DNA from: Bosea sp. Tri-49
Lineage (GTDB): Bacteria; Pseudomonadota; Alphaproteobacteria; Rhizobiales; Beijerinckiaceae
Length of the DNA stretch: 64,000 nt
Direction of reading: 5' to 3'
Assembly (NCBI RefSeq): GCF_003952665.1
Contig: NZ_CP017946.1
Location: 558,001-622,000, forward strand
Shown here: one piece after another, positions 1,608-60,737 of the stretch
Layout: every line of letters begins with the position of its first letter
Numbering within the stretch: the stretch's first letter is position 1
Position numbers and translations under genes: made by a program
The notes under the pieces: model-generated
The model's database searches: none
Seen by the model: the letters and a program-made list of their open reading frames with translations, nothing else
Told to the model about the DNA's origin: nothing

Positions 1608-3878
1608 ATGGGGACGAATTGCAGCGGGCTGCGCCAAGGCGTGGCGCTTGGGGCCTTGATGCTGGCCATGACGGCGCCGGCGCTCGCGCAGCAGCAACGA
1701 ACCCCTGCGCGCCCGCCCGCCACGCCCGATCAGGTCGTGCTCGACCAGATCAACGTGCAGGGTGAGGGGCAGGCATCGCCGCTGCTGCAGGGGCCGACGA
1801 CCACGACCACCACCCGCGCCGAGCTCGACCGGCAGCAGATCCAGAGCCTGACCGATCTGTCCAACCGGATCGAGGCGGGCATCACCTTCAACCGCCAGAA
1901 CGGCTCGCTCAACATCCGCGGCCTGGATGGCGCGCGCGTGCTGACGACGATCGATGGCATTCGGCAGCCCTTCATCGTCGACACCCGGATCGGCCGCGCC
2001 GGCGCCAACGCCTTCGACTTCGATTCGCTGTCCTCGCTCGACCTGCTGCGCGGCGGCAGCGGCGGCGCCACGCTCGGCGGTGGTGCGCTCGGCGGCGCTT
2101 TGGCGGTCCGCACGCTCGATCCGGAGGACCTGATCCGTAACGGGCGCTCCTATGGGGCGCTGGCCAAAACCGGCTATGACAGTACCGATCGGGCCTGGTT
2201 CGGCAGCGCGGCGGCGGCCGCCCGCATGGGCAACACCTCCGTCCTGCTGCAGGGTGGCTTCCGCAACGGCCACGAGGTCGACAACAGGGGCAAGGACAAG
2301 TCGATCGGTGCGACCCGCACGGAGCCGAACCCGGCCGACTTCAACCAGTACAGCTTCCTCGGCAAGATCTACCAGCAGGTCGGTGAGGCCCACCGCTTCG
2401 GCCTCACTGGCGAGTTCTTCAAGCGCGCCGACCGGATTCAGACCCGGACCAGCACGGTCTCGCTGACCGGCAATTTCCGGCCCGGCGCCCATCAGACGGG
2501 CGAGGATGTCGAGCGCAACCGCGTTTCGTTTACCTATGACTACAAGCAGCCCGGCGGCTTTCTCGACGAGGCGCACGCCAATCTCTACTGGCAGAAGCTG
2601 AAGCGTAACGACCTGGTCAGTGCCTGGCGCTACACCAGCATCATCGGGCCTTATGGTCGCGACAACGAGAGCGAAGAGAACGCCTACGGCTTCAATGCCT
2701 ATGGCGTGAAAAATTTCCAGACGGGGCCGGCTTCGCATCGCGTGACGTTCGGCACCGAGCTGCGCATGTCCTCGCTGAAGCAGTATTCGTCCGGCATCGA
2801 CAATTGCCCGCCGCGGCCGGCCTCCGGTTCGTTCACGGGGGCGCTTGCCACCTGCAACAACCTGTTCACCAACCAGGCCGACCAGCCCGATGTCGACGGG
2901 CGGCTCGTCGGCCTCTATGTGCAGGACGAGATCGGCCTGCTCGACAACCGGCTTCGCATCACGCCTGGCGTGCGCTTCGACTGGTATGAGGAGAAGCCGC
3001 AGGCGACGCCGGCCTATTCGGCCGGTGGCTCAAATCCGATCGGCCTGCCGCCGTCCTCAAGCGATTCCGGCTGGTCGCCGCGCATCCGGCTCGAATACGA
3101 CCTCCTGAAGAGCGCTCCTTTCGTGAAGGACGTCACTGTCTTCGCGCAATGGGCCAAGAGCTTCCGGGCACCGACGGCGGACGAGCTCTATGGCCGCTTC
3201 GGCGGGCCGAGCACCTATCTGCGCGCCGGCAACCCCTTGCTGCGGCCGGAAGAGGGCAATGGCGTCGATGTCGGCGTCCGCTTCGGCGACAAGCAGCTCG
3301 GCGGCTCGATCACCTATTTCTACACCAACTATCGCAATTACATCGAGCAGATCCAGCTTCAGGCTCCGAATGTTGGTGGCCTGTACCCACAGGGCGGTAT
3401 CGTCAGCTTCCGCAACATCCCGCGCGCCGAGATCCAGGGCGTCGAGCTCAACGGGCAATACGCCTTCGCGCCGAACTGGCTGGTGCGCGGCTCCTTCGCC
3501 TATACCCGTGGCCGCAACAAGACCGACGACATCTTCCTGAACTCGATCCCGCCGGTGCAGGGTATCGTCGCCGTCGCCTATGGCACGGATCGCTGGGGCG
3601 CCGAGGTCTCGGCCAAGATGGCCGGCAAGCGCGACGACGTCTCGACTGTCCAGGCCGGCACCGGCTTCAAGGCGCCGGGCTATGCGATCTTCAACGCCTC
3701 GGCCTGGTGGCGCCCGGCGCCGGAGATCGCAGATGTCGAGCTGCAGGTCGGCGTCTACAACATCTTCGACCGCAAGTATTTCGATGCAGCCAACGTGCCG
3801 CTCGCGCGCCCGCAGTCGCGCGATTACTACAGCGAGCCCGGCCGCACCGTGAAGGCGACGCTCAAGTACCAGTTCTAG
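1608..3878 (+). CDS. TonB-dependent outer-membrane receptor, heme/hemoglobin-receptor-like
   Basis: The protein has 756 residues. I chose the ATG at 1608 because AGGA lies 8 nt upstream and the product then starts with a clean signal peptide ending ALAQQ. An upstream in-frame TTG at 1581 is less likely. A plug domain follows, containing LNIRGLDGARVLTTIDGIRQP and a glycine-rich GGSGGATLGGGALGGA segment. The beta barrel carries FRAP near residue 518 and NPLLRPE near 541, the FRAP and NPNL boxes of heme receptors, and ends in a C-terminal phenylalanine (LKYQF). No histidine lies between the two boxes, where heme receptors usually have one. No TonB, ExbBD or periplasmic heme-binding gene is adjacent. 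Assignment to the family is secure; the ligand is inferred. Confidence 0.85.
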   Translation: MGTNCSGLRQGVALGALMLAMTAPALAQQQRTPARPPATPDQVVLDQINVQGEGQASPLLQGPTTTTTTRAELDRQQIQSLTDLSNRIEAGITFNRQNGSLNIRGLDGARVLTTIDGIRQPFIVDTRIGRAGANAFDFDSLSSLDLLRGGSGGATLGGGALGGALAVRTLDPEDLIRNGRSYGALAKTGYDSTDRAWFGSAAAAARMGNTSVLLQGGFRNGHEVDNRGKDKSIGATRTEPNPADFNQYSFLGKIYQQVGEAHRFGLTGEFFKRADRIQTRTSTVSLTGNFRPGAHQTGEDVERNRVSFTYDYKQPGGFLDEAHANLYWQKLKRNDLVSAWRYTSIIGPYGRDNESEENAYGFNAYGVKNFQTGPASHRVTFGTELRMSSLKQYSSGIDNCPPRPASGSFTGALATCNNLFTNQADQPDVDGRLVGLYVQDEIGLLDNRLRITPGVRFDWYEEKPQATPAYSAGGSNPIGLPPSSSDSGWSPRIRLEYDLLKSAPFVKDVTVFAQWAKSFRAPTADELYGRFGGPSTYLRAGNPLLRPEEGNGVDVGVRFGDKQLGGSITYFYTNYRNYIEQIQLQAPNVGGLYPQGGIVSFRNIPRAEIQGVELNGQYAFAPNWLVRGSFAYTRGRNKTDDIFLNSIPPVQGIVAVAYGTDRWGAEVSAKMAGKRDDVSTVQAGTGFKAPGYAIFNASAWWRPAPEIADVELQVGVYNIFDRKYFDAANVPLARPQSRDYYSEPGRTVKATLKYQF

Positions 3879-3917
3879 AAATGGGCGCCCTGCGAGTGCG
3901 ACGAGCGGCGCGTCGGC

Positions 3918-4775
3918 TCATCCCCCGCCCAACCCGGTGATCAAGGTCTGCACGAGCGCGATCGCCCCTGAAATCGGCCTGAACTGGCTGGTGGCTGAGT
4001 TGTCGACGAGGAAAGCCAGGTCCGCGTGGCGCGCCAGGGGGCTTTCGGGTACGTCGGTCAGGACAAGGATACGTTTGCCGCTGAGGTGGGTGTCGAGCGT
4101 GATGTCGACCACCGACTGCGTGTAGGGCGTGAAGGCGATCGCGACCAGGAGGTCGCCGGAGCGCATGGTGGCGATTTGTTCGGCTGCCATGCCGCTGCCG
4201 AAATCGAGCAGGCTGCACTGCCGTTCGCAGCGCGTCAGGCCATAGGCCAGATAGGTCGCGATCGGCCGCGAGCGGCGCAGGCCGGCGATGTAGACATGCT
4301 CGGCCTGGCGTAGCATCGCCGTCGCCTTCTCCAGCGACTCTGGCGAAATGGTCCGCCGCAGGTCCTCCAGCGAGGCGATGAGCGCATCGACGCAGCCGTT
4401 CAGCAGGCCGCCGAAATCCCGCGCCTCTTGCGGGGAAGTCTGCCGAGCGAAAACCTCTTCGCGTGCGCGGGGGGCGCCCTCGATCAAGCGCAGCCGGAAG
4501 ACCCGCTGCATCTCGGAGAAGCCGCGATAACCGAATTCCTTGGCGAAACGGATCAGCGTCGATGGCTGGACCTCGAGTTCGCCGGCGATGACGACCACGG
4601 TGTTCAAGGCAAAATCATTGGGCTTCTCCAGTGCCGACCGCGCGATGCGCTGCAGGTGCGGACTGAGTTGATCGAAGCGATTGCGCAGACGCTGGCGCAG
4701 CGCCTCGAACGTCTCCTGCGTGGCCTCTCCCTGAGAAGACGCAGGCACCTGGTTATTGAATGAATTTTCGTTCAT
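3918..4775 (-). CDS. MurR/RpiR family transcriptional regulator (HTH plus SIS domain)
   Basis: The protein has 285 residues. The N-terminal RpiR helix-turn-helix covers about residues 25-100 (NTVVVIAGELEVQPSTLIRFAKEFGYRGFSEMQ). A SIS sugar-phosphate-binding domain follows at about 130-265 (HVYIAGLRRSRPIA, then SGDLLVAIAFTPYTQS). The ATG at 4775 has AGAAG upstream on its strand. The gene is divergent from the nine-gene transporter and sugar-acid operon beginning at 4930 and convergent with the TonB receptor. RpiR regulators usually sense phosphosugars or sugar acids and control adjacent catabolic genes, so this one probably represses or activates the 4930-14320 operon. That role is inferred from position. 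Confidence 0.88.
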   Translation of the reverse strand: MNENSFNNQVPASSQGEATQETFEALRQRLRNRFDQLSPHLQRIARSALEKPNDFALNTVVVIAGELEVQPSTLIRFAKEFGYRGFSEMQRVFRLRLIEGAPRAREEVFARQTSPQEARDFGGLLNGCVDALIASLEDLRRTISPESLEKATAMLRQAEHVYIAGLRRSRPIATYLAYGLTRCERQCSLLDFGSGMAAEQIATMRSGDLLVAIAFTPYTQSVVDITLDTHLSGKRILVLTDVPESPLARHADLAFLVDNSATSQFRPISGAIALVQTLITGLGGG

Positions 4776-4776
4776 T
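4759..4776. promoter_or_regulatory. Inverted repeat over the rpiR-type start codon (possible operator)
   Basis: AATGAA at 4759-4764 and TTCATT at 4771-4776 form a perfect 6-bp inverted repeat with a 6-nt spacer. It overlaps the first codons of the regulator at 4775 and faces the divergent operon. Autoregulation through this site is plausible, but the repeat is short. Confidence 0.3.
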
Positions 4777-4830
4777 ATTTCTTCTAGCGCACTCGAACAG
4801 TGACATAAAGCGCCAAATTTTCTGCGCTAG

Positions 4831-4859
4831 TTGACAAGAGAGAAAAAATATTCATGCTC
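4831..4859 (+). promoter_or_regulatory. Candidate promoter of the transporter/sugar-acid operon
   Basis: TTGACA at 4831-4836 is a perfect -35 hexamer in the AT-rich divergent gap. The -10 is weak: the best candidate is CATGCT at 4853-4858 with a 16-bp spacer. It lies about 70-100 bp upstream of the binding-protein start. Confidence 0.3.
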
Positions 4860-4929
4860 TTTGAAAATTAGTTCTGACTTCGATCAGACAAGAGGCGGGC
4901 ACAAGCCCGCCCGTTTCGGGGAGGACATG

Positions 4930-6219
4930 ATGTCGAAGATCAAGATCTCACGGCGCGGCTTGTTGGGAGCCGCCGGCGCCGCGTCCGCAGTCTCGCTGTT
5001 TGCAGGCCCGTGGCAGCACAATCGCGTCTGGGCGCAGGGCGCGGCCAAGCCGCTCCGGATCGGCATCACAGCCGATGCCAGCGGCATGTATGCGAACTCC
5101 GGCGCCAGCGACAAGCGCGGCATGGCGATGGCGATCGCCGAAGCCAATGAGCGCGGCGGCGTGCTCGGCCGCAAGGTCGAGTTCGTCCATATCGACACCG
5201 AGACGACGGCCGCCACCGGCAGCCGCGTAGCGGAACGGATGATCAGCCGCGAGCAATGCGGCTTCCTCGTCGGCGCGGTCCATTCCGGCGTCGCCAACGC
5301 GATCAGCCAGGTCGCCCAGAAATACGGCGTGGTCTACATCAACACCAACTCGTCCTCGCCGACCGAGGCTGGCCAGAACTGCCACCGCGTCAAGTTCGTG
5401 TTCGACGGCAACGGCACCAATTTCGCCAAGGCTGCGGTCAAGAGCGCGATCGAGCGCTTCGGGCCGGACTGGATGCTGCTGACCAACGACTATGTCTGGG
5501 GCCATGATACTGCCGCCGCGACCAAGACCCTGCTGAAGGAGTATGGCGGCAAGGTCATGGAAGAGGTGCTGATCCCGCAAGGCACCCGCGACTTCACCTC
5601 CGCCTTGCTCAAGGTGCAGCAGCGCAAGCCCGGCGTCATCTCGGCGGCGATCGGCGGTGACGACCAGAAGGCGATGCGCCAGCAGGTCGTCCAGCTCAAG
5701 ATGGGCGACAAGCCGGCCTGGATCAACAGCCAGCAGGACTGGGACGACGTCTACGGCCTGCCGATCGAGACCCTGTTCGGCGTGTTCGGTACGACCTGGT
5801 ACTACCGCCTCGACCTTCCGGGCGTCGCCGACTTCGTCAAGCGCTACCAGGCGATGTATCCCGAGACCGCCATGCGCTCGCCTGGCAACGTCTTCTATAA
5901 TGGCTACATGGCGATACGAGAGCTGCTCGGCGCCGTGGAGCGGGCCGGCACGACCAACAACATCGCCGTGATCAAGGCGCTTGAAGGCCACAGGATTTCG
6001 GCCAGGGACCGCATGCAGCATTTCGATGCGAGCATCGATGCCCAGACGCATCAGGTGCAGCAGACGATCTATCTCGCGACCGCCAACAAGGCGCCCAAGG
6101 AGAAGGACGACATCTTCGAGGTCCTGAGCCAGGCCAAGGCGGAGGATGTGCGGGACACCGATTCCGCCAAGCTCTGCAAACTGGAGCCTTACGAACAGAC
6201 GCCGACCTTCGATGCCTGA
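4930..6219 (+). CDS. Liv-type ABC transporter substrate-binding protein (Tat signal)
   Basis: The protein has 429 residues. ATGs lie at 4927 and 4930; GGGGAGG at 4918-4924 is well spaced only for 4930. The N-terminus has a twin-arginine signal (SRRGLLGAAGAASA) with cleavage after WAQG, so the protein is periplasmic. The mature part starts LRIGITADASGMYANSG and continues with type I periplasmic-binding folds of the LivJ/urea/amide class (ANERGGVLGRKVEFV; FLVGAVHSGVANAISQVA). It is the first gene of a tight operon with two permeases and three ATPases. The catabolic genes downstream suggest a sugar or sugar-acid ligand rather than an amino acid. Confidence 0.9.
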   Translation: MSKIKISRRGLLGAAGAASAVSLFAGPWQHNRVWAQGAAKPLRIGITADASGMYANSGASDKRGMAMAIAEANERGGVLGRKVEFVHIDTETTAATGSRVAERMISREQCGFLVGAVHSGVANAISQVAQKYGVVYINTNSSSPTEAGQNCHRVKFVFDGNGTNFAKAAVKSAIERFGPDWMLLTNDYVWGHDTAAATKTLLKEYGGKVMEEVLIPQGTRDFTSALLKVQQRKPGVISAAIGGDDQKAMRQQVVQLKMGDKPAWINSQQDWDDVYGLPIETLFGVFGTTWYYRLDLPGVADFVKRYQAMYPETAMRSPGNVFYNGYMAIRELLGAVERAGTTNNIAVIKALEGHRISARDRMQHFDASIDAQTHQVQQTIYLATANKAPKEKDDIFEVLSQAKAEDVRDTDSAKLCKLEPYEQTPTFDA

Positions 6220-6290
6220 CCCGTCCCGCCATCCGTGGCCGCCAGCCGGCGGCTGCGGATGATGGCACCGCTGCATCCGGACGGATCCGC

Positions 6291-7211
6291 ATGATCGATC
6301 TTCTGCCGCATATCATCAACGGCCTGACGCTGGGCCTGCTCTTCGCCCTGATCGCCCTTGGCTTCACCCTGATCGTCGGCGTGATGGAGGTGATCAATCT
6401 CGCCCACGGCTCGCTGTTCGCGATCGGCGCCTATTTCGCGCTGACGGTGATTGCCGGCAGCTGGTTTGCCGGAACGCCTTTCGGCGCCTGGTGGCTGAGC
6501 CTGCCGCTCGGCCTACGCTATGTGCTGGCGCTCGCCCTCGGGCCAGCGCTTGCCGGGCTCGCCGGCATGCTGCTCGAGCTCTGCCTGCGCCCGACCTATG
6601 GCAAGCCGCCGCTCTACGGGCTGCTGCTGACCTTCGGCGCCGCTCTGGTCATCGAGGAGCTGATCCGGCTCGTCTGGGGCACGGGCGAGCAGAACCTGGC
6701 CCTGCCGCAGGCGATCAACGGCGCCTTCCTGCTGAACGGCATGATCTTCTCGACCTACCGCTTCTTCGCCGCCGGCTTCAGCATCGCCGCGATCATCGCC
6801 GTCTGGCTGTTCCTGGAGCGCACCTCGGCCGGCGCGGTGATCAAGGCTGGCGCGCATGACAGCGAGATGGTCCGGGCCCTCGGCTACGATCTCGCCAGGC
6901 TCAGGCTCGTCGTCTTCGGCTTCGGCGCTGCGCTAGCCGGGCTCGCCGGCGTGGTGATGGTGCCGATCTGGGGGCTTCGCCCGCATGTCGGCGTCGATAT
7001 CGTGATCCCGGCCTTCCTCATCATCGTCATCGGCGGCGTCGGCAGCTTCTGGGGCGCCGTCATCGCGGCCCTGCTCGTCGGTCTCGCCATCGGAATCACC
7101 GGCGCCTATGCGGCGGCCTGGTCGACGATGTCGATGTACCTGCTTCTGATCGCGATCCTCGGCTTCCGCAGCCGCGGCCTGCTCGGCCGCAAGAGCGCCC
7201 TGGAAAATTGA
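6291..7211 (+). CDS. ABC transporter permease, LivH family
   Basis: The protein has 306 residues and about eight hydrophobic segments. It begins MIDLLPHIINGLTLGLLFAL and carries the LivH-type segments IALGFTLIVGVMEVINLAHGSLF and GLAGVVMVPIWG. It lies 71 bp after the binding protein and 4 bp before the LivM-type partner. The two permeases should form the heterodimeric channel of this importer in the inner membrane. The start at 6291 is a normal ATG with GGA upstream. Confidence 0.92.
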   Translation: MIDLLPHIINGLTLGLLFALIALGFTLIVGVMEVINLAHGSLFAIGAYFALTVIAGSWFAGTPFGAWWLSLPLGLRYVLALALGPALAGLAGMLLELCLRPTYGKPPLYGLLLTFGAALVIEELIRLVWGTGEQNLALPQAINGAFLLNGMIFSTYRFFAAGFSIAAIIAVWLFLERTSAGAVIKAGAHDSEMVRALGYDLARLRLVVFGFGAALAGLAGVVMVPIWGLRPHVGVDIVIPAFLIIVIGGVGSFWGAVIAALLVGLAIGITGAYAAAWSTMSMYLLLIAILGFRSRGLLGRKSALEN

Positions 7212-7215
7212 CGCC

Positions 7216-8244
7216 ATGATCTCGCTCTCGGACATCCCCGCGCGCCCATCGGCCTGGATCACGCCGCCGATGATCGTGCTCGCCCTGCTGCTGCTGGCCG
7301 CGCCGGACCTGCTGCCTGCCGTCGGGCTCTATCAGTATCTCGGCATCGAGATCGCGATCTGGATCGGCTTCGCACTCGGGTTCAACCTGCTGTTCGGCTA
7401 TACCGGCCTGCACTCCTTCGGCCATGGCGCCTATCTCGGCATCGGCGCCTATGCCTTCGGGCTGTTCCAGCACCATGTCGCAGTCAGCCTGTGGGGTGGG
7501 CTGCTGGCCGCCGTGCTGGCGGCCGGGGTCGCAGGCGCCCTTGTCGGGGCATTCCTCTCCCATCGCCGCGGCATCTACTATGCGCTGCTGACGATCGGCT
7601 TCGGCCAGATCTTCTGGTTCCTCGCGATGAAGCTCCATCGCGTCACCGGCGGCGAGGACGGGTTGCTCGGCATTCCGCGCCCGCCGCTGACGCTCGGGCC
7701 CTGGCAGCTCGCGCTCACCGACAACCGCACGCTGTTCTATTTCGCGGCTGCGCTGCTGATGATCGTCGTGGTGCTGTGCTGGCGGCTGGCGAACTCGCCC
7801 TTCGGCCGCGTGCTGCAGGCCATCCGCCAGCACGAGACCCGCGCGCGCTTCGTCGGCTACGAGGTCTGGCGCTTCAAATGGGCCGTCTTCACGCTGTCTG
7901 CGATGCTCGCCGGCCTCGCCGGGAGCCTGCTCGCGATGGCCCAGCAGAGCGCTTATCCCGATGTGATGAGCCTGCATCAATCCGGCCTCATCGTGATGAT
8001 GGTCCTCGTCGGCGGCGGCCTTGTGAGCTTCTGGGGACCGGTGCTGGGCGTGGTGTTCTACTTCGTCGCCCGCGACGTCCTCGGCGGCCTGACCGAGACC
8101 TGGCTGCTCTGGTACGGCCTGATCTTCATGGCGATGGTGATGCTGCGGCCGGAAGGCCTGGCGGGCATGCTGCACGGGCTGTTGCGGCGCAGGCCTGCCC
8201 TGAAGCCGACTACAGCGCCGGCCCCCGCGACGGAGGCCGCGTGA
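7216..8244 (+). CDS. ABC transporter permease, LivM family
   Basis: The protein has 342 residues and multiple membrane segments. It shows LivM family features such as LGFNLLFGYTGLHSFGHGAYLGIGAYA near the start and GLAGSLLAMAQQSAYPD, VLVGGGLVSFWGPVLG toward the end. It lacks the long N-terminal extension seen in the second LivM of this window (57701-59083). The stop codon overlaps the next ATG (TGATG), so it is translationally coupled to the ATPase gene. Confidence 0.92.
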   Translation: MISLSDIPARPSAWITPPMIVLALLLLAAPDLLPAVGLYQYLGIEIAIWIGFALGFNLLFGYTGLHSFGHGAYLGIGAYAFGLFQHHVAVSLWGGLLAAVLAAGVAGALVGAFLSHRRGIYYALLTIGFGQIFWFLAMKLHRVTGGEDGLLGIPRPPLTLGPWQLALTDNRTLFYFAAALLMIVVVLCWRLANSPFGRVLQAIRQHETRARFVGYEVWRFKWAVFTLSAMLAGLAGSLLAMAQQSAYPDVMSLHQSGLIVMMVLVGGGLVSFWGPVLGVVFYFVARDVLGGLTETWLLWYGLIFMAMVMLRPEGLAGMLHGLLRRRPALKPTTAPAPATEAA

Positions 8245-8993
8245 TGGCGCTCTTCGAGGCTCGCAACATCCATAAGCGCTTCGGCTCGCGCGTTGTGCTG
8301 GAGAACATTTCGCTCTCCTTCGAGGCCGGCCAGGTCAGCGGCATCATGGGTCCCAACGGGGCCGGCAAGTCGACCTGCTTTCATGTCCTCACCGGCCAGC
8401 ACAAGCCCGATCGCGGCGAGGTCGTGTTCGACGGCCAGCGGATCTCGGGCCTGCCGCCGCAGCGCATCGCCCGGATGGGCGTCTCGCGCTCCTTCCAGCT
8501 GATGAACCTGTTCGACGACACGGTCGTCATCGAGAACGTCATGCTGGCGCTGCCGGCCTTCCGGAAACGCCGGCTGCGCGCGATGTCGGCGGTGTTCTCG
8601 GATACCGCCCTCATCGATCAGGCGCTGGCCGTGCTCGATCAGGTCGGCCTTGCCGCACGCGCCTGGGACGCTGCCGCATCGCTCAGCTATGGCGACCGCC
8701 GCGCGCTGGAGATCGCCGTCGCGCTCGCGGCCCAGCCCCGCATCCTCTTCTTGGACGAGCCGACATCAGGCCTCGGCGTGGAGGCGACGCGCCGCCTCGC
8801 CTTGCTCGTGAAGCGGCTGCGCGAGCGCTACACGATCGTGATGATCGAGCACGACATGCGCTTCCTGTTCGAGCTCGCCGACCGGATTTCGGTGATCCAC
8901 TGGGGTCAGGTCATCGCCGAGGGAACGCCGGCCCAGCTCAGCGACAACAAATGGGTGCGGCGCTCGGCCCTGGCGGAGGCAACCCATGCTTGA
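8244..8993 (+). CDS. ABC transporter ATP-binding protein, LivG family
   Basis: The protein has 249 residues. The start is the ATG at 8244, which overlaps the LivM stop. Walker A is GPNGAGKST, the signature is LSYGDRRALEIA, Walker B is ILFLDEPTSG and the H-loop is MIEHDMRF. The C-terminus is LivG-like. Its 3' end overlaps the next gene by 8 bp. It energises import together with the LivF-type ATPase. Confidence 0.92.
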   Translation: MALFEARNIHKRFGSRVVLENISLSFEAGQVSGIMGPNGAGKSTCFHVLTGQHKPDRGEVVFDGQRISGLPPQRIARMGVSRSFQLMNLFDDTVVIENVMLALPAFRKRRLRAMSAVFSDTALIDQALAVLDQVGLAARAWDAAASLSYGDRRALEIAVALAAQPRILFLDEPTSGLGVEATRRLALLVKRLRERYTIVMIEHDMRFLFELADRISVIHWGQVIAEGTPAQLSDNKWVRRSALAEATHA

Positions 8994-9681
8994 GGTCCGC
9001 GACATCGAAACCTTCTATGGCGAGACCCAGGCCCTGTTCGGCACCTCGCTACGGGTCGGCGAGGCTGAGGTGGTCTCGCTGCTCGGTGCCAACGGCGCCG
9101 GCAAGACCACGACCATCCGCTCGATCCTGGGTCTGACGCCGCCGCGGCGCGGGCAGATCCATTTCGACGGGCAGGACATCACCCGCCACCCGACGCATCG
9201 CATCTCGGCCATGGGCATCGGTTGGGTGCCGGACGATCGCCGTGTCTTCCCGACGCTGACCGTCGCACGCAACCTGCAGATCGGCATGCGCAAGACCCGT
9301 TTCCGGTCCTGGCAGGTCAGCGAGATGTTCTCGATATTCTCGGCGCTCGAACATCTGATGCCGCGCGAATGCGAGAACCTCTCCGGCGGCGAGATGCAGA
9401 TGGTCGCGATCTCGCGGGCGCTGCTCGGCTCGCCGGGACTCGTCCTGCTCGACGAGCCGAGCCAGGGGCTTGCGCCCAAGATCGTCCAGGACGTGCTGTC
9501 GACAGTGCGGCGCCTCAAGGCCGAAGGCATCTCCGTGCTGATCGTCGAGCAGAACGCGCTCGCCGCGCTCGAGGTCTCGGACCGCGCCTATGTCATGGAC
9601 CGCGGCCGGATCGTCCATGAGGGACCGGCCCGCGCTCTGCTCGACGACAGCTCCCGGCGCCAGCGCCTGATCGGAATGTGA
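8986..9681 (+). CDS. ABC transporter ATP-binding protein, LivF family
   Basis: The protein has 231 residues and is a complete nucleotide-binding domain: Walker A GANGAGKTT, signature LSGGEMQMVAIS, Walker B LVLLDEPSQG and H-loop VEQNALA. The glutamine-asparagine at the H-loop (VEQN rather than EHD) is normal for LivF. It overlaps the LivG-type gene and lies 1 bp before a third, abnormal ATPase gene. Confidence 0.92.
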   Translation: MLEVRDIETFYGETQALFGTSLRVGEAEVVSLLGANGAGKTTTIRSILGLTPPRRGQIHFDGQDITRHPTHRISAMGIGWVPDDRRVFPTLTVARNLQIGMRKTRFRSWQVSEMFSIFSALEHLMPRECENLSGGEMQMVAISRALLGSPGLVLLDEPSQGLAPKIVQDVLSTVRRLKAEGISVLIVEQNALAALEVSDRAYVMDRGRIVHEGPARALLDDSSRRQRLIGM

Positions 9682-9682
9682 C

Positions 9683-10324
9683 ATGAGCGCCATGCTTGAC
9701 GTCAGTAACTTGTCGAAGATCTACACGCGCGGCCGTTTCGACCGAACGCCGACCTTTAGGCTCGACGCGGATTTCCGCATCGAGGAACCGGCGATCGTCG
9801 GCATGATGGGCCCCAACGGCTCGGGCAAGACGACGCTGTTCGAGCTGATCACCGGCTCGAACAGCCCGACATCCGGCAAGGTCGAGGTCTGCGGCCGCGA
9901 CATCCACCGCGTCCGCACCGACGAGCGCGACCGCCTCGCCATCCACTACCACCAGTCCTACCAGGTCCGGCATTTCCGCTCGCTTCGTCCCAATGCGCTG
10001 ATGCAGCGTGCCGGCAGCGAGTATCCGCTGGTCCATCTTTTCGACGAGCCGCAGTTCAACACGCAGGACGGCTATATCGGCTTCATGCTGGATTTCTTCC
10101 GGCGGCTGCGAGCTGAGCGCCGGCTGGTCTTCCTCTGCGTCCACCCGAACGAGCGCTTCCACCTCGAGATCCTCGAGGAGATCTGCGAGCGCTTCATCTT
10201 CGTCAACAAGGGCGTCGTCACGCCCTTGCCGGACTATGCCGGCCTGCTCGCCCACGAGCCGGCCCGCGCCTATCTCGGCACTCTGCTGACGGACCGCGCC
10301 GCCGCCCTGGAGCCCGCCGCATGA
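9683..10324 (+). CDS. Degenerate ABC ATPase lacking the LSGGQ helical region
   Basis: The protein has 213 residues and is the third ATPase gene of this importer operon. Walker A is intact (GPNGSGKT, residues 43-50), Walker B reads LVHLFDEP (D121, E122) and a histidine at 154 (VHPNER) could be the switch. No LSGGQ-like signature exists, and only about 30 residues separate the Q-loop candidate Q91 from Walker B, where a normal domain has about 70. The signal-transducing helical subdomain therefore appears to be missing. The reading frame is intact, overlaps the next start by 4 bp (ATGA) and is free of disruptions, so it is probably expressed. It may be a regulatory or assembly partner rather than a transport motor. 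Its function is unknown. Confidence 0.8.
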   Translation: MSAMLDVSNLSKIYTRGRFDRTPTFRLDADFRIEEPAIVGMMGPNGSGKTTLFELITGSNSPTSGKVEVCGRDIHRVRTDERDRLAIHYHQSYQVRHFRSLRPNALMQRAGSEYPLVHLFDEPQFNTQDGYIGFMLDFFRRLRAERRLVFLCVHPNERFHLEILEEICERFIFVNKGVVTPLPDYAGLLAHEPARAYLGTLLTDRAAALEPAA

Positions 10325-11142
10325 ACCGCTCCGAAGGGCACCTGACGCCGCAGATCGACCTCGACGCGATCGACCGGCTTTTCAACATCCAAGGGCTGCG
10401 CGTCTTCCTGCCCGGCGGCTACGGAGCGCTCGGCGAGGCGATCGCCTTGGCGATGACGCGGCACGGCGCCGATGTCGCCATCGCTGGCCCGAGCGAGGCC
10501 AAGGCGCTAGCGCTAGCGGATAGGCTGCGCGGGCAGGGCGTCGAGGCTCATGGCTTCGCGCTGGATGCGCGCCATCCGGCCGCGATCGCGGAGGCGACCG
10601 ACCGCGCCGCCGAGGCGATGGGCGGCATCGACGTGCTCGTCAACTGCGTCGGCATCCAGCGCGAGCAAAGGCTGATGGATGTCGACGAGGCGACCTTCGA
10701 CAGCATCTACGAGACCAACCTCAAATCGGCGATGTTCCTGGGCCAGGCGGTGGCGCGCCACCAGATCGCGCAGGGAGCCGGAGGCCGCCAGATCCACCTG
10801 CTCTCGGTGCGCTCGCAACTGGCGCTGCGCAATCGCGGCTATTCGGCCTACTGCGCCACCAAGGGCGGCCTCGTCATGCTGGTCAAGCAGCATGCGATGG
10901 AACTCGCAGAACACAACATCACCGTCAACGGCGTTGCACCGACCTTCATCCAGTCCGAGCGGATCCGCCCTCATCTCGAGCGCGAGGGTTTCCGCGACTT
11001 CATCCTCGATCGCAACCCGCTCGGCCGGATCGGCGATCCCGTCGAGGTTGTCGGGCAGGTCATCACCTTCGCTGCGCCGGCCGGCAGCTACATGACGGGC
11101 CAGGTCGTCTATATCGACGGCGGCGTGACGGCGAGCCAATGA
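10321..11142 (+). CDS. Short-chain dehydrogenase/reductase (SDR)
   Basis: The protein has 273 residues and a classical SDR layout: a glycine-rich cofactor loop PGGYGALGEA (residues 31-40, a variant of TGxxxGxG), NCVG at 108-111 in place of NNAG, a catalytic Tyr-Lys pair Y177-x3-K181, and a serine at 162 or 165. The C-terminal YMTGQVVYIDGGVTA is typical. It overlaps both neighbours by ATGA junctions. In this operon it probably oxidises a sugar or sugar acid with NAD(P) before dehydration. The exact substrate cannot be read. Confidence 0.88.
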   Translation: MNRSEGHLTPQIDLDAIDRLFNIQGLRVFLPGGYGALGEAIALAMTRHGADVAIAGPSEAKALALADRLRGQGVEAHGFALDARHPAAIAEATDRAAEAMGGIDVLVNCVGIQREQRLMDVDEATFDSIYETNLKSAMFLGQAVARHQIAQGAGGRQIHLLSVRSQLALRNRGYSAYCATKGGLVMLVKQHAMELAEHNITVNGVAPTFIQSERIRPHLEREGFRDFILDRNPLGRIGDPVEVVGQVITFAAPAGSYMTGQVVYIDGGVTASQ

Positions 11143-12863
11143 CGGCAACGCCGCTTCGCAGCGCCCGCTGGTTCGACACCGACGACCTTCGTGGCTTCGG
11201 CCATCGCTCGCGCCTGATGCAGATGGGCTACGGCATCGAGGACTGGAACGGCCGGCCGGTCATCGCGATCGTCAACACCTGGTCGGACATCAACCCCTGC
11301 CACGCGCATTTCCGCCAGCGCGTCGAGGATGTGAAGCGCGGCGTGCTGCAAGCCGGCGGCTTTCCGCTGGAGCTGCCCGCGATCTCGCTCTCGGAGAATT
11401 TCGTCAAGCCGACGACGATGCTCTATCGCAACCTCCTGGCGATGGAGACCGAGGAGCTGCTGCGCTCGCATCCGGTCGACGGCGCCGTGCTAATGGGCGG
11501 CTGCGACAAGACCACACCCGGCCTGATCCTCGGCGCGATCAGCGCCGACCTCCCGGCCATCTTCCTGCCTGCCGGGCCGATGCTGCGCGGCAACCTGCGT
11601 GGCGAGGTGCTGGGCTCGGGCTCCGATGCCTGGAAGTATTGCGACGAGCGCCGCGCCGGCAGGATCGATGCGCAGGAGTGGCAGGCGGTCGAGGCCGGCA
11701 TCGCACGCTCCTACGGCCACTGCATGACGATGGGCACGGCCAGCACCATGACCGCCATCGCCGAGGCGATGGGGCTGACGCTGTCCGGGGCCTCCTCGAT
11801 CCCCGCCGCCGATTCCGGCCATATCCGCATGGCGACGGAGACCGGCCGGCGCATCGTCGCGATGGTCGGCGAGGACCTGCGGCCCTCGGCCGTACTGACG
11901 CGCGCCTCGTTCGAGAACGCCGTCGCGGTCGCCATGGCTATGGGCTGCTCGACCAACGCGATCATCCACCTCATCGCGATGGCCCGCCGCGCGGGCCAGG
12001 ATATCGGTCTTGCCGATTTCGAGGCGGCGAGCCGGATCATTCCGGTGCTGGCCAACATCCGCCCCTCCGGCGAGCGCTATCTGATGGAGGATTTCTACTA
12101 TGCGGGCGGCCTGCCTGGACTGATGAGCCGGCTGACACGGCATCTGTCTCTCGATGCGCTGACGATCGAGGGGCGAACGCTCGGGGCTGCGATCGAGGCC
12201 GCGCCGGTCTGGAACGACGACGTCATCCGGCCCCTGGACAGGCCAGTCTCGGCGGAGCCTGCGCTGGCCGTGCTCTATGGCAATATCGCGCCGCTGGGCT
12301 GTGTGATGAAGCCGTCGGCGGCCGAGCCGCATCTGCTCGACCATACCGGACCTGCGCTCGTCTTCGACAACTACGCGCAGATGAAGGCTGAAATCGACGA
12401 CCCCGATCTCGCCGTAACCGCCGACACGATCCTAGTGATGCGCGGCGCCGGCCCACAGGGCGGCCCCGGCATGCCGGAATGGGGCATGCTGCCGATCCCG
12501 AAGAAGCTCCTGAAGCAGGGCGTGCGCGACATGCTGCGCGTCTCCGATGCCCGCATGTCCGGCACGAGCTACGGTGCATGCATCCTGCATGTCGCGCCCG
12601 AGGCCCATATCGGCGGCCCGCTCGCCCTTGTCCGCAGCGGCGATCTCATCCGTGTCGATGTCGCGGCGCGCAGCATCGATCTCTGTGTCGACGCAGCCGA
12701 GCTGGAACTCCGGCGCGCCACGCTGACGCGTCCGGAACCGCGCTTCGAGCGCGGCTATGGCTGGATGTTCTCGCGCCATATCGGCCAGGCCCATGAGGGC
12801 TGCGACTTCGATTTCCTCGAGACCTCGTTCGGAGCGCCCGTTGGCGAGCCGGACATCCTGTGA
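11139..12863 (+). CDS. IlvD/Edd family dehydratase, sugar-acid (aldonate) type
   Basis: The protein has 574 residues. Cysteines at 54 (INPCH), 122 (GGCDKTTP) and 195 (GHCMTMGTAS) match the three Fe-S ligands of the family, and K124 is at the carbamylated-lysine position. The GHCMTMGTASTM form is that of pentonate and hexonate dehydratases such as L-arabinonate or D-xylonate dehydratase rather than biosynthetic IlvD. The expected reaction is removal of water from an aldonate to give a 2-keto-3-deoxy acid. The start overlaps the SDR stop. A housekeeping IlvD function is the less likely alternative, because no other branched-chain amino-acid biosynthesis gene is nearby. Confidence 0.85.
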   Translation: MTATPLRSARWFDTDDLRGFGHRSRLMQMGYGIEDWNGRPVIAIVNTWSDINPCHAHFRQRVEDVKRGVLQAGGFPLELPAISLSENFVKPTTMLYRNLLAMETEELLRSHPVDGAVLMGGCDKTTPGLILGAISADLPAIFLPAGPMLRGNLRGEVLGSGSDAWKYCDERRAGRIDAQEWQAVEAGIARSYGHCMTMGTASTMTAIAEAMGLTLSGASSIPAADSGHIRMATETGRRIVAMVGEDLRPSAVLTRASFENAVAVAMAMGCSTNAIIHLIAMARRAGQDIGLADFEAASRIIPVLANIRPSGERYLMEDFYYAGGLPGLMSRLTRHLSLDALTIEGRTLGAAIEAAPVWNDDVIRPLDRPVSAEPALAVLYGNIAPLGCVMKPSAAEPHLLDHTGPALVFDNYAQMKAEIDDPDLAVTADTILVMRGAGPQGGPGMPEWGMLPIPKKLLKQGVRDMLRVSDARMSGTSYGACILHVAPEAHIGGPLALVRSGDLIRVDVAARSIDLCVDAAELELRRATLTRPEPRFERGYGWMFSRHIGQAHEGCDFDFLETSFGAPVGEPDIL

Positions 12864-12880
12864 CCGTGCTGGAGATACCG

Positions 12881-14320
12881 ATGTCCAACCTTGAGCCCAA
12901 GCTTCTGATCGGGGGCGAGTTCCGGACGGCCACCGCGCTGCCGCCGCTTTCCGTTCTCAATCCCTGCACGGAAGAACAGCTCTGGACGGCGCCTCGCGCG
13001 GGTGCTGCCGAAGTGGAGGAGGCGCTCCATCACGCGCGGGCCGCGCTCAAGACCTGGTCGAGGGTGCATGGCTGGGGGCGGGCCAAGGTGCTACGCGGCA
13101 TCGCCCGGGCGATGGAGGCGCGCAAGGGGGCGCTGGCGAGCGCCTTGTCCTATGAGATCGGCCGGCCGATCTCCCAGTCCGAAGGCGAGGTCCTGATCGC
13201 GATCGAGCAGTTCGACTGGTTCGCCGGCGAGGCTGAACGCCTCTTCGGCGAGACGATCCCCTCGCGCCAGGGCGGACGGCTGGCCACGGCGCTGGAACCG
13301 GTCGGCATCGTCGCCGCCTTCACCGCCTGGAATTTTCCGATCAACCTGCTGGCGCGCAAGATCGCTCCCGCGCTCGCCGCCGGCTGCCCGATCATCTGCC
13401 GGCCGTCCGAACAGACACTGCTGACCTCGACGCTGATCGCCGAAGCCTGCGCCGCCGGCGGCGCGCCGGCCGGCACCGTCCAGATGCTGTTCGGCCCGGC
13501 CGAGACGATCACCCCGGCCCTGATGGCGGCCGAGGACGTCCGCAAAATCTCGCTCACCGGCTCGACGCGCGTCGGCCAGATGCTGCTCGCGGAAGCCGCC
13601 AAGACCGTCAAGCGCTGCTCGATGGAGCTCGGCGGCCACGCGCCCGTCGTGATCTGCGAGGATGCCGACGTCGACAATGCGGCGGCGCTATGTGCGCAGT
13701 TCAAGTTCCGCAATGCCGGCCAGGTCTGTATCGCCCCGAACCGCTTCTACGTGCATGAGAGCCTGGCCGAGCGCTTCGCCAGCGGCATGGTCAAGGCCGC
13801 CGAGGCGCTGGTGCTTGGCGACAGCCACGACCGGGCGACGACCATGGGGCCGCTGACACTCGCCAGCCAGCGCGACCGGGTCGAAGCGCTGTCAGCTGAC
13901 ACTGAAACCTCTGGCGCGCGACGCCTTACTGGCGGACGGCGCCTCGCCGGCCGGAACAAGGGTTACTTTTTCGAGCCGACGGTTTTCGCCGATGTGCCCG
14001 ATGAGGCCCGCATCATGCGCGACGAGCCCTTTGGCCCGCTGGCACCAATCGCCACCTTCCGCGACTTCGACGATGCGATCGAGCGGGCGAATTCGACTCC
14101 CTATGGGCTCGCCGCCTATGGCTTCACGTCCAGCCAACGCTACGCCGAGGCGCTGAGCGCCGGCCTCCACGCCGGCATGGTCGGGGTCAACACCTTCATG
14201 ATCGCCCATGCCGAGGCCCCGTTCGGCGGCATCAACCATTCCGGCATGGGGCGCGAAGGCGGCCGTCAGGCGATCCACGATTATCTCAACGTCAAACTCA
14301 CGCATTTCATCTCGACGTGA
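12881..14320 (+). CDS. NAD(P)-dependent aldehyde dehydrogenase
   Basis: The protein has 479 residues from the ATG at 12881, chosen because GGAGA lies 5 nt upstream. A GTG at 12860 overlapping the dehydratase stop is the alternative. The catalytic residues are present: N151 in FTAWNFP, E249 in MELGGHAP and C283 in NAGQVCIAP. The family is close to succinate or alpha-ketoglutarate semialdehyde dehydrogenases. As last gene of the operon it would oxidise the aldehyde left after dehydration or cleavage of the 2-keto-3-deoxy acid, for example alpha-ketoglutarate semialdehyde in a Weimberg-like route. The intervening second dehydratase or aldolase is not encoded here. Confidence 0.88.
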   Translation: MSNLEPKLLIGGEFRTATALPPLSVLNPCTEEQLWTAPRAGAAEVEEALHHARAALKTWSRVHGWGRAKVLRGIARAMEARKGALASALSYEIGRPISQSEGEVLIAIEQFDWFAGEAERLFGETIPSRQGGRLATALEPVGIVAAFTAWNFPINLLARKIAPALAAGCPIICRPSEQTLLTSTLIAEACAAGGAPAGTVQMLFGPAETITPALMAAEDVRKISLTGSTRVGQMLLAEAAKTVKRCSMELGGHAPVVICEDADVDNAAALCAQFKFRNAGQVCIAPNRFYVHESLAERFASGMVKAAEALVLGDSHDRATTMGPLTLASQRDRVEALSADTETSGARRLTGGRRLAGRNKGYFFEPTVFADVPDEARIMRDEPFGPLAPIATFRDFDDAIERANSTPYGLAAYGFTSSQRYAEALSAGLHAGMVGVNTFMIAHAEAPFGGINHSGMGREGGRQAIHDYLNVKLTHFIST

Positions 14321-14754
14321 GATGACCTCGAACTGGCGCCCGGCAAGGGCCACAAATGCCCTCCACCGGCTGGGAGAAATGCGCCACTAGCCGACATAGG
14401 CATGCCGCCTGGAACCGGACGTTACGAACGGTCTCGCCTCTACTGATGGTCCAGCTGTAATCGATTGCCGCTGTGGCTGCTGTCGACGACTCGTGGAGCT
14501 AGGCACAGCGAGCCTTGATGGCGCGAGAAGCTCCAGCCCTGACGACTATCGCCGAAGCTAAATTAGCCCAGGGACGGCGACATTCTCGCAGCCGCCAGGC
14601 GTTTTCGATGCCCGACAGCTTTCGTGCGCGATCGGCCGCGCCATCACGCTGAATCGCCTATGTGCGGCACCTCACAGACGAGATGCCCCCCGAGCCGCCA
14701 CAACGCTGTAGCACCGCCCGAAGAGGCGGCGAACAAAGCAATGGGAGCGGCACC
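14321..14754. other. 434-bp non-coding gap
   Basis: No convincing gene, terminator or RNA was found. The sequence is GC-rich with many short ORFs in several frames and no good ribosome-binding site until 14743, just before the DUF1127 gene. Confidence 0.4.
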
Positions 14755-16176: not shown

Positions 16177-16436
16177 TTTATCCGTTCGCCCCTGCCGCCA
16201 TACGCCAGCACGTCTCGCGTATTGAACAGGCAAGGCCGCTGAAGCTCTGACGAGCCACGATCGTCGTAGCCCCCTTTAGGTAGGCCGGTCGCGAGCCGGT
16301 TTCGCGACACAGCTGACCCAGCATGATATGAGGGGAGCAGGTGCAAGTCGGGCGTTTCCCGACCTGCATCGATCGCGGTCGAAAGGGGGGAACGGTTGTG
16401 CGTTTCACGCCCTGCTCCTTGCGCCAGGCTGTTCCG

Positions 16437-17417
16437 ATGACGCGCCGCGAGACCATCGCGCTGCTCGGCGCGATGGCCGCATCGACGATCTCGGCCCGTG
16501 CGCAGCAGAAAACCGCGCCGGTCATCGGTTATCTCGGCTCGGAATCGCCCGAACCATACGGCAGTCGCCTCGCTGCCTTTGCCGAGGGCCTGGCCGAAGC
16601 AGGCTATGTCGACGGCCGCAACGTCGCGATCGATTTCCGCTGGGCTGAAGGCCAGTACAGCCGATTGCCGGCGCTCGCGATGGATCTGGCGGATCGTCAG
16701 GTCACCGTCATGGTCGCGCCGGGCGGTGCGGAGGTTGCGCTCGCCGCACGATCCGCCACCAAGACGATCCCGATTGTCTTCGAGTTAGGCGGCGACCCTG
16801 TCGCGCTCGGCTTGGTCGCCAGTCTGTCGCGGCCCGGCGGCAATCTCACCGGCGTGAGCAGCCTGAGTGTGGAAGTCTCGCTGAAACGGCTGGAGTTCAT
16901 GAGCGAGCTGTTTCCAGCCGCCGGGACCTTTGCCGTCGCCGTCAATCCGACGAGCCCGACCTCGGCTTCGCAATCGAGAAACCTCCAGGCCGCTGCGGGC
17001 AGTCTCGGATTGGAGCTGCGCCTCCTCAATGCCAGCAGCGAGCCGGAGCTGGAGGCCCTGTTCGCGGCCGTATCCCGGATGCAGCTGCCTGCGCTGGTCT
17101 TCACCTCCGATCCCTATTTCGCCTACCGAAGTCGGCGCCTCGCCGAGCTGGCCGTGCGTCATAAAGTACCCGCCATCACCCAGGCGCGGGATTTCCCTAA
17201 CGCTGGCGGCCTGATGAGCTATGGCGGCGACTTCCGGCAGTCGCATCGCCATACCGGGATCTATGCCGGCCGGATCATCAAGGGTGAGAAGCCCTCCGAT
17301 CTGCCGGTCCAGCGCGTGACGAAGGTCGAGCTGTTCGTCAATCTGAAGGCAGCCGGGCAGCTCGGACTGACCATGCCGCCTTCAATTTTGAGCAGCGCGG
17401 ACGTGGTGATCGAATAA
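16437..17417 (+). CDS. Orphan ABC-type substrate-binding protein (TrpX/YtpR-like, pfam04392 class)
   Basis: The protein has 326 residues from the ATG at 16437, giving MTRRETIALLGAMAASTISARAQQ (in full 24 residues) as signal peptide, a very common N-terminus in this family. A GTG at 16398 with AAGGGGGG upstream (16383-16390) is an alternative start that would add 13 residues. The body (GYLGSESPEP, GLAEAGYVDGRNVAIDFRWAEG, DPVALGLVASLSRPGGNLTGVS) is the ABC_sub_bind fold with periplasmic location. No permease or ATPase lies beside it. Instead the membrane cyclase gene starts 34 bp downstream, so the two are probably co-transcribed. Confidence 0.85.
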   Translation: MTRRETIALLGAMAASTISARAQQKTAPVIGYLGSESPEPYGSRLAAFAEGLAEAGYVDGRNVAIDFRWAEGQYSRLPALAMDLADRQVTVMVAPGGAEVALAARSATKTIPIVFELGGDPVALGLVASLSRPGGNLTGVSSLSVEVSLKRLEFMSELFPAAGTFAVAVNPTSPTSASQSRNLQAAAGSLGLELRLLNASSEPELEALFAAVSRMQLPALVFTSDPYFAYRSRRLAELAVRHKVPAITQARDFPNAGGLMSYGGDFRQSHRHTGIYAGRIIKGEKPSDLPVQRVTKVELFVNLKAAGQLGLTMPPSILSSADVVIE

Positions 17418-59985: not shown

Positions 59986-60737
59986 GCGAGGCAGCACCGC
60001 TCCCGGGCGCTCAAACCGCTCCGCTTTTGGCCGTCCGCGGCGTCAAGACCTATTACGGCAAGATCATCGCGCTGAAGGGCGTCGACGTCGATGTTCGCCA
60101 GGGCGAAATCGTGACGATGATCGGCGCGAACGGCGCCGGCAAGTCGACGCTGATGATGACGATCTTCGGCACCCCGCAGGCGCGCGAAGGCACCATCACC
60201 TATGAGGGGCGCAACATCACCAGGATGCCGAGCCACGAGATCGCGCGGCTCGGCATCGCGCAGTCGCCGGAAGGCCGGCGCATCTTCCCACGCATGACCG
60301 TGTTCGAGAACCTGCAGATGGGTGCGGCCGTCGCCGGCATGCAGCATTTCGACGAGGACCTCGAGAAGATCTGCGCGCTGTTCCCGCGTGTGAAGGAGCG
60401 CTTGCAGCAGCGCGGTGGCACGCTCTCGGGCGGCGAGCAGCAGATGGTCGCGATCGCGCGCGCGCTGATGGCGCGGCCGAAGCTGCTGATGCTCGACGAG
60501 CCCTCGCTCGGCCTCGCGCCGCTGATCGTCAAGCAGATCTTTGAGGCGATCCGCGAACTCAACCGCAGCCAGGGCCTGACCGTCTTCCTGGTCGAGCAGA
60601 ACGCCTTCCATGCGCTCAAGCTCGCCCACCGCGGCTATGTCATGGTCAACGGCGTCATCACCATGAGCGGCACCGGCAAGGAGCTGCTCGCCAATCCGCA
60701 GGTGCGGGCGGCCTATCTCGAAGGCGGCCGGCATTGA
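59982..60737 (+). CDS. livF: Branched-chain amino-acid ABC ATPase LivF
   Basis: The protein has 251 residues from the ATG at 59982, overlapping the LivG stop (ATGA). Motifs are GANGAGKST, LSGGEQQMVAIARA, LLMLDEPSLGLAP and VEQNAFHAL. It completes the ATPase pair of this importer. Confidence 0.94.
   Translation: MSEAAPLPGAQTAPLLAVRGVKTYYGKIIALKGVDVDVRQGEIVTMIGANGAGKSTLMMTIFGTPQAREGTITYEGRNITRMPSHEIARLGIAQSPEGRRIFPRMTVFENLQMGAAVAGMQHFDEDLEKICALFPRVKERLQQRGGTLSGGEQQMVAIARALMARPKLLMLDEPSLGLAPLIVKQIFEAIRELNRSQGLTVFLVEQNAFHALKLAHRGYVMVNGVITMSGTGKELLANPQVRAAYLEGGRH

Follow-up and report, generated by a model that had tools for sequence, protein, structure and literature searches.

The signature motif and the helical subdomain are usually treated as defining parts of an ABC ATPase. 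Class 1 OLD nucleases are reported to carry an ABC-type ATPase that lacks a defining signature, has histidines in its Q- and D-loops and hydrolyses ATP (PMC7049728). In C-P lyase, PhnK and PhnL are extra ABC subunits that form a stacked double dimer and are both required in vivo (PMC9947105). Importers of the LivFGHM (HAAT) type combine a substrate-binding protein (SBP), two permeases and the ATPases LivG and LivF in one operon, an arrangement shared by the locus analysed here, which encodes one ATPase more.

The locus lies in a stretch of 64,000 nucleotides from Bosea sp. Tri-49, referred to below as the window. Its gene order is SBP, LivH, LivM, LivG, LivF, the third ATPase (called X here), SDR, dehydratase and aldehyde dehydrogenase, with an RpiR/SIS regulator gene oriented divergently. 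The permease names LivM and LivH are ones that we presume from gene order.

3918..4775, minus strand: RpiR-type regulator with HTH_6 and SIS domains, divergent (family search)
4831..6219, plus strand: Peripla_BP_6 substrate-binding protein (family search)
6291..7211, plus strand: LivH-like permease (ORF; homologues in X loci)
7216..8244, plus strand: LivM-like permease (ORF; homologues in X loci)
8241..8993, plus strand: LivG-like ATPase, complete, LSYGD (ORF, Pfam, motifs)
8986..9681, plus strand: LivF-like ATPase, complete, LSGGE (ORF, Pfam, motifs)
9683..10324, plus strand: X, third ABC-type ATPase of the operon, without helical subdomain or signature, 213 aa (ORF, Pfam, alignment, AlphaFold)
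10321..11142, plus strand: SDR oxidoreductase, a context gene that varies among X loci (family search)
11139..12863, plus strand: IlvD/EDD dehydratase, variable context gene (above the NCBIfam cut-off for L-arabinonate dehydratase, NF009559)
12860..14320, plus strand: aldehyde dehydrogenase, variable context gene (family search)

The X gene, an uninterrupted ORF at 9683-10324 (+) that translates to 213 residues, starts one base after the LivF stop codon and overlaps the start of the SDR gene at 10321. Around the LivF-X junction (9600-10400) there was no promoter-like site and one terminator-like site, at 10077-10091 inside X (mean in shuffles 0.3), and no Rfam match occurred in 3800-14600. The SBP ORF opens at TTG, and an internal ATG near 4924 is its likely start; the SRRGLLGAAG that follows this ATG presumably marks a twin-arginine-like signal start, judging from the sequence. 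Elsewhere in the window, a second LivF-type gene, 42% identical to the LivF of the X operon, lies at 60027-60698 (+), and other ABC ATPase matches lie near 59.2 kb and 34.8 kb. At 16341-17417 (+) the window encodes an ABC_sub_bind (PF04392) binding protein, followed at 17452-19188 (+) by a dCache-HAMP-guanylate/adenylate cyclase protein; the two could form a sensor unit.

By sequence inspection, the Walker A motif of X reads GPNGSGKTT, with K49, and Walker B with the catalytic glutamate reads HLFDEP, with D121 and E122. H154 is the H-loop histidine and Y14 the A-loop tyrosine. Q91 serves as the Q-loop glutamine, with Q94 likewise invariant, and the choice between the two varies with the alignment. 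These motif names (Q-loop Q91, A-loop Y14 and the others) are our own assignments. Walker A, Walker B, the catalytic glutamate and the H-loop are present in all 81 sequences compared (the best 80 of 194 relatives and window X), as are a Q-loop glutamine and an A-loop aromatic residue; Y14, K49, Q91, D121/E122 and H154 themselves are kept in 81/81. Motif inspection found no LSGGQ-like signature in window X, and a loose signature pattern matched once among the 81 sequences, at VAGSD in L057, which we take as a chance match. Also missing is the helical subdomain between the Q-loop and Walker B. The first-pass annotation of this DNA had described Walker A, Walker B and a possible H-loop as kept and LSGGQ as lost, as is seen here. 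It had put the loss from the helical subdomain at about 40 residues; the loss is real but slightly larger, since the spacing from the Walker A lysine to the Walker B aspartate is 72 residues in X versus 116 in LivF and 129 in LivG, so that 44-57 residues are gone. Its remark that two normal ATPases are already encoded holds, LivG (LSYGD) and LivF (LSGGE) both being complete; X, encoded beside the two, is not an orthologue of either.

The Pfam family PF00005 (ABC_tran) covers residues 29-91 only of X, a partial match accompanied by an AAA_23 match below the cut-off; on the same 137-position profile, LivF matches positions 3-136 and LivG positions 1-137. The first-pass annotation had proposed predicting the structure of X alone, and AlphaFold models of two members gave a bare, single RecA-like core without the helical subdomain. 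This core matches solved nucleotide-binding domains (NBDs) in fold, as an ABC-type RecA core. The model of window X has no helix of at least 4 residues between strands 86-89 and 117-121, and the second model has only a 4-residue helix (103-106) between the Q-loop strand and Walker B. No extra dimerisation domain is predicted, and the Toprim and dimerisation domains of class 1 OLD proteins are absent from the 213 residues. Local confidence is low in the residues following the Q-loop and, to a milder degree, in the D-loop, as expected if these segments become ordered on a partner; it can also mean plain flexibility. X is a variant ABC ATPase without two defining features of a canonical NBD and with the core ones kept: it keeps the cis elements that such an ATPase requires, and has lost the trans contribution and the part usually coupled to the permease.

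A scan of 84,980 species genomes yielded 273 pattern matches, of which 194 encode an X relative, and we studied the best 80 of these 194. They belong mostly to Alphaproteobacteria, with Burkholderiales (Variovorax, Polaromonas, Rhodoferax, Acidovorax, Ramlibacter and Caenimonas) and metagenome bins labelled Arenicellales, Gammaproteobacteria, Desulfosarcina, Olavius symbiont and Binatia also represented. The relatives share the architecture of window X at 60-98% identity (78-row alignment). In the same alignment, the invariant columns comprise K12, Y14, GPNG-GK49TTLFE and RDR-A-HYHQ91SYQ-R in the first half, and HLFD121E122PQF, QDGYIGFML, H154P and YLG in the second. Two protein searches, with the best 120 clusters taken from each (240 listed, from several sources), returned proteins of 204-218 aa, named as generic ABC ATPases or 'hypothetical protein', or nameless; thousands of lower-scoring matches outside the best 120 of each search may include ordinary ABC ATPases.

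The family stands apart in profile searches. Within its own genome, X scored 384 bits and the other ABC matches listed at most 53 bits. In a phylum sample of 398 genomes and an order sample of 397, scoring the 7 best candidates of each genome gave no match between E 1e-18 and the X family (at most 2.5e-96), so that no intermediates were seen there. X occurs in 7 of 289 class genomes, 5 of the 398 phylum genomes and 13 of the 397 order genomes, its own genome being counted each time, and a plasmid collection gave no match at E 1e-30. The VIA rows listed for X are ordinary NBDs; OLD-type ATPases are not among them, and X may still resemble those. By hhalign, the X profile scored 168.8 against LivG and 148.1 against LivF from X-less operons, and 124.4 and 121.1 against LivF and LivG from X operons, a weak comparison for origin because the profiles are unequal in diversity.

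Selection on X resembles that on its neighbours. Against L001, L002 and L003, dN/dS was 0.046, 0.109 and 0.147 for X; 0.124, 0.086 and 0.105 for LivG; 0.104, 0.144 and 0.121 for LivM; 0.022, 0.055 and 0.086 for LivF; and 0.037, 0.043 and 0.075 for LivH, the four other Liv genes together spanning 0.022-0.144. Purifying selection acts on X. Mean pairwise identity over 58 complete operons is 67.5 for X, 70.2 for LivF, 68.3 for LivH, 64.8 for LivG and 61.4 for LivM; in selection and conservation alike, X evolves as a working subunit does. The first-pass annotation had called the gene in frame, tightly coupled and not decayed, in accord with its intact ORF, its position one base from LivF and this selection. 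It had also named what would undo its view, a frameshift restoring a signature or homologues occurring only as scattered decaying copies; neither is the case, as the relatives share one architecture at the identities given above. Columns at least 95% conserved number 15 of 19 in the Q-loop region and 14 of 16 in Walker B and the D-loop. The helix after the D-loop has 9 of 15 such columns in X, versus 5 of 15 in LivF and 2 of 15 in LivG; in the linker that takes the place of the helical subdomain, 1 column of 16 reaches this level. Conservation thus peaks at the nucleotide and sandwich face. Its good conservation across many bacteria makes it probable that X does a job of its own in the working of the transporter.

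The linkage of X to LivF is close to strict. A LivF sequence lies directly upstream of X in 79 of the 79 loci with upstream DNA among the best 80; the 80th (L026) starts at X, and in L071 only the tail of LivF is on the contig before X. In 77 of the 78 loci where the gap between the two genes was measured, it spans about -4 to 19 bases. The one wide gap seen, of about 465-475 bases, is in L053; this spacer (L053:7524-7988, about 465 bases, from a Desulfosarcina bin) held no ORF called by the script. LivM, LivG and LivF were all found, at the thresholds set, in 75 of 80 loci, and 4 of the other 5 are cut by contig starts. The true exception is L046, in which X is intact, LivF is truncated at its N-terminus and LivG and LivM are missing upstream, possibly a rearrangement or misassembly. 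In that metagenome bin (L046:7372-8606) the LivF Walker A is altered to GASKTT. Several Burkholderiales loci (among them L059, L061, L064, L070 and L076) keep LivM-LivG-LivF-X together and have SBP and LivH on the opposite strand, and L008 has a second SBP-like match between its LivH and LivM matches. Among 18 X loci (L089-L106), LivF adjoins X in 17 and the contig of L100 starts at X.

Searched with LivF, the order sample (297 genomes, E <= 1e-70) gave hits in 11 genomes and the class sample (289 genomes, E <= 1e-65) in 9; these are 19 distinct genomes, as the two samples share our own. Wherever LivF was at least 60% identical, X lay within 50 nt (16 of 16 sampled genomes). Three genomes of the same class sample with LivF at 47-49% identity (G067, G186 and G280) have no X at E 1e-40, and in two of them (L147 and L148) other genes follow LivF; the next LivF paralogues in our own genome are 33-45% identical to the LivF of the X operon. 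The counts overlap with those from the 80 loci and are not independent of them, because a number of the sampled genomes reappear, as identical records, among the named loci. Natural LivF-X fusions were also considered and rejected: 5 of the 16 sampled genomes with X have X frames long enough (449-462 aa; G093, G182, G672, G836 and G837), and LivF is out of frame in all 5.

The enzymes around X vary. Nine enzyme queries were run by tblastn at set identity thresholds and 40% coverage against the 80 loci with flanks of up to 8 kb. They found an SDR in 48 loci, an IolG-like Gfo/Idh/MocA oxidoreductase in 28, an aldehyde dehydrogenase in 25, a 3-hydroxyisobutyrate-dehydrogenase-like protein in 24, an arabinonate-type dehydratase in 23, IolC in 20, an HpaI-type aldolase in 14, a second SDR in 11 and a methylmalonate-semialdehyde dehydrogenase (MMSDH) in 2. 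None of the nine was found in 14 of 80, and these absences are upper bounds, truncated loci being included (in L030 the sequence stops 26 bases past X). The SBP was found in 72 of 80 loci. Of the neighbouring proteins tested, IolC of L060 and MMSDH of L073 scored above NCBIfam cut-offs, and those of the Gfo, 3-hydroxyisobutyrate-dehydrogenase-like, HpaI-type and SDR kinds scored below them. Since the enzyme neighbours vary while LivF-X stays, X tracks the transporter and not one pathway. Membership of X in a sugar-acid enzyme pathway was rejected on these counts (IolC 20/80, dehydratase 23/80, none of nine 14/80), and the first-pass suggestion that X links uptake to the downstream enzymes is likewise not supported, the enzyme set changing or not being found. 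The expectation that homologues always occur in Liv-type sugar-acid operons is borne out in part: those examined lie beside Liv genes, and the operons are not always of the sugar-acid kind. From the neighbouring enzymes, the substrate of the importer is likely a polyol (inositol-like) or a sugar acid.

Taken together, X is a conserved protein, predicted to be an ABC-type RecA-like core, that carries its own nucleotide-site motifs and is encoded with LivM-LivG-LivF, directly after LivF. Our preferred reading, with a probability of roughly 0.45, is that one clade of Liv-type (HAAT) importers has in X a dedicated accessory subunit, an ATPase that docks on the LivG/LivF pair and gates it. The linkage to LivF, the invariant motifs, the conserved sandwich face and selection like that on the other subunits support such a role; the intact X beside a truncated LivF in L046, with no LivG or LivM upstream, speaks against it. 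X would bind ATP. Since both the coupling-helix groove and the signature depend on the helical subdomain, X would be unable to stand in for either LivG or LivF, and so would dock on the assembled or resting pair of the two. The docking surface would be the conserved sandwich face, formed by Walker A, the Q-loop HYHQSYQVR, the D-loop DEPQFNTQDG and the H-loop, most likely placed opposite the LSGGE of LivF. We speculate that ATP binding by X, perhaps with hydrolysis at one site, acts as a clamp that gates NBD closure by nucleotide or substrate state; here we infer both the partner of X and the direction of its effect. The PhnK/PhnL double dimer offers a precedent for stacked ABC subunits (PMC9947105). 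Covariation over 76 operons gave top-pair z values of 6.2 for X-LivF, 6.0 for X-LivG and 6.6 for X-LivM, against near-neighbour nulls (15 shuffles) with means of 6.4, 5.6 and 5.9 and maxima of 7.2, 7.2 and 6.8; the LivG-LivF positive control also fell within its null (5.5 versus a mean of 5.8, maximum 6.4). Top-ten means slightly exceeded the null in all four pairs (X-LivF 5.86/5.42, X-LivG 5.18/4.83, X-LivM 5.61/5.25, control 5.20/5.08), which we do not read as signal, the control being included. Clade-specific invariant residues numbered 13 in LivF (95 sequences versus 21 X-less) and 12 in LivG (94 versus 19 X-less), with the window's own copy counted twice; as conserved LivF and LivG columns cluster at motifs anyway, these residues single out no partner of X.

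The first-pass annotation had argued that an ATPase without a signature forms no standard sandwich dimer. This stands for a symmetric two-site dimer, but X could fill one composite site. A tentative and somewhat doubtful proposal is that X, as an NBD core without the helical subdomain, forms a composite nucleotide site together with either LivF (through its LSGGE) or LivG (through its signature), and gates or powers the importer asymmetrically. It is unlikely that X and LivF form the asymmetric catalytic pair proper of a three-ATPase transporter, with the LivF LSGGE completing the ATP site of X and one site unequal: the cis catalytic residues of X, including the catalytic glutamate and the switch histidine, are invariant and X adjoins and is co-inherited with LivF, yet a complete LivG can serve LivF, and X lacks the helical half of an NBD, the half that normally binds the permease coupling helix.

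Two further readings would take X away from the NBD pair. Strict linkage to LivF suggests a transporter role and the model has no extra dimerisation domain, which makes it quite improbable that X is a homo-oligomeric, signature-less ATPase acting in assembly or energy sensing, even though His88 and His90 near its Q-loop are invariant and class 1 OLD nucleases are reported to have an ATPase without a defining signature, with histidines in both loops, that hydrolyses ATP (PMC7049728). Less probable still is a role for X as a soluble P-loop phosphotransferase, which would either phosphorylate the imported polyol or sugar acid or produce a signal to the SIS-domain RpiR regulator; its acceptor site would be formed by the invariant polar residues H88, H90, Q91, S92, Y93, Q94, R96, Q124, Q128 and D129, which are expected to lie around the gamma-phosphate. 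The Q- and D-loops are indeed dense in polar and aromatic invariants, the signature is gone and an RpiR-like regulator occurs in 63 of 80 loci (loose threshold), but the ABC-type catalytic glutamate and H-loop are kept, and X tracks the transporter while the enzymes change. We know of no ABC-fold kinase of this kind. Finally, the loss of a whole subdomain could be that of a functionless degenerate duplicate, or a sequencing or frameshift artefact; with the motifs kept in 81/81, dN/dS of 0.05-0.15 and 240 clusters of proteins 204-218 aa long listed across several sources, this is close to negligible, and conservation and dN/dS rule out decay or a frameshift of X. X is a natural, taxonomically spread and strongly conserved counter-example to the usual definition, with the ATP-binding motifs kept and the trans-acting half dropped. 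Encoded beside two complete NBDs, it allows one to ask directly whether an ABC transporter can use a third ATP site with a regulatory role, and a composite-site importer with three ATPases, if true, would be an ABC transporter architecture that we have not seen described.

How X relates to described systems can be set out as follows. Searches of open-licence PMC literature, judged by title and abstract, found no paper that describes, for a Liv-type operon, an ATPase that is a third one or lacks the helical subdomain, and no named family. The first-pass annotation, too, knew of no described function for such a protein; signature-less ABC-type ATPases are not wholly without precedent, however, as class 1 OLD proteins are reported to lack a defining signature (PMC7049728). 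X also marks, in public genomes, a clade of importers whose substrate and control are undescribed in that literature. Relative to canonical NBDs (LivG, LivF, LptB and UrtD/E), X is without the signature motif and the helical subdomain, its D-loop is altered (QFNTQDGYIGFML) and its Walker A-B spacing is 72 versus 116-129. Class 1 OLD proteins share with X an ABC-type ATPase, the missing defining signature and unusual Q- and D-loop residues (PMC7049728); unlike X, a bare core from a transporter operon, they have a dimerisation insertion and a Toprim nuclease domain. PhnK and PhnL are comparable by description as extra ABC subunits stacked on a complex, whereas the PhnK chain is longer (248-253 residues) and both serve C-P lyase and not an importer. 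Neither system, as far as we saw, both lacks the helical subdomain and is encoded in an importer operon. Lastly, compared with LivFGHM/HAAT importers, the neighbouring enzymes of the X operon would point to the use of polyols or sugar acids and not of amino acids.
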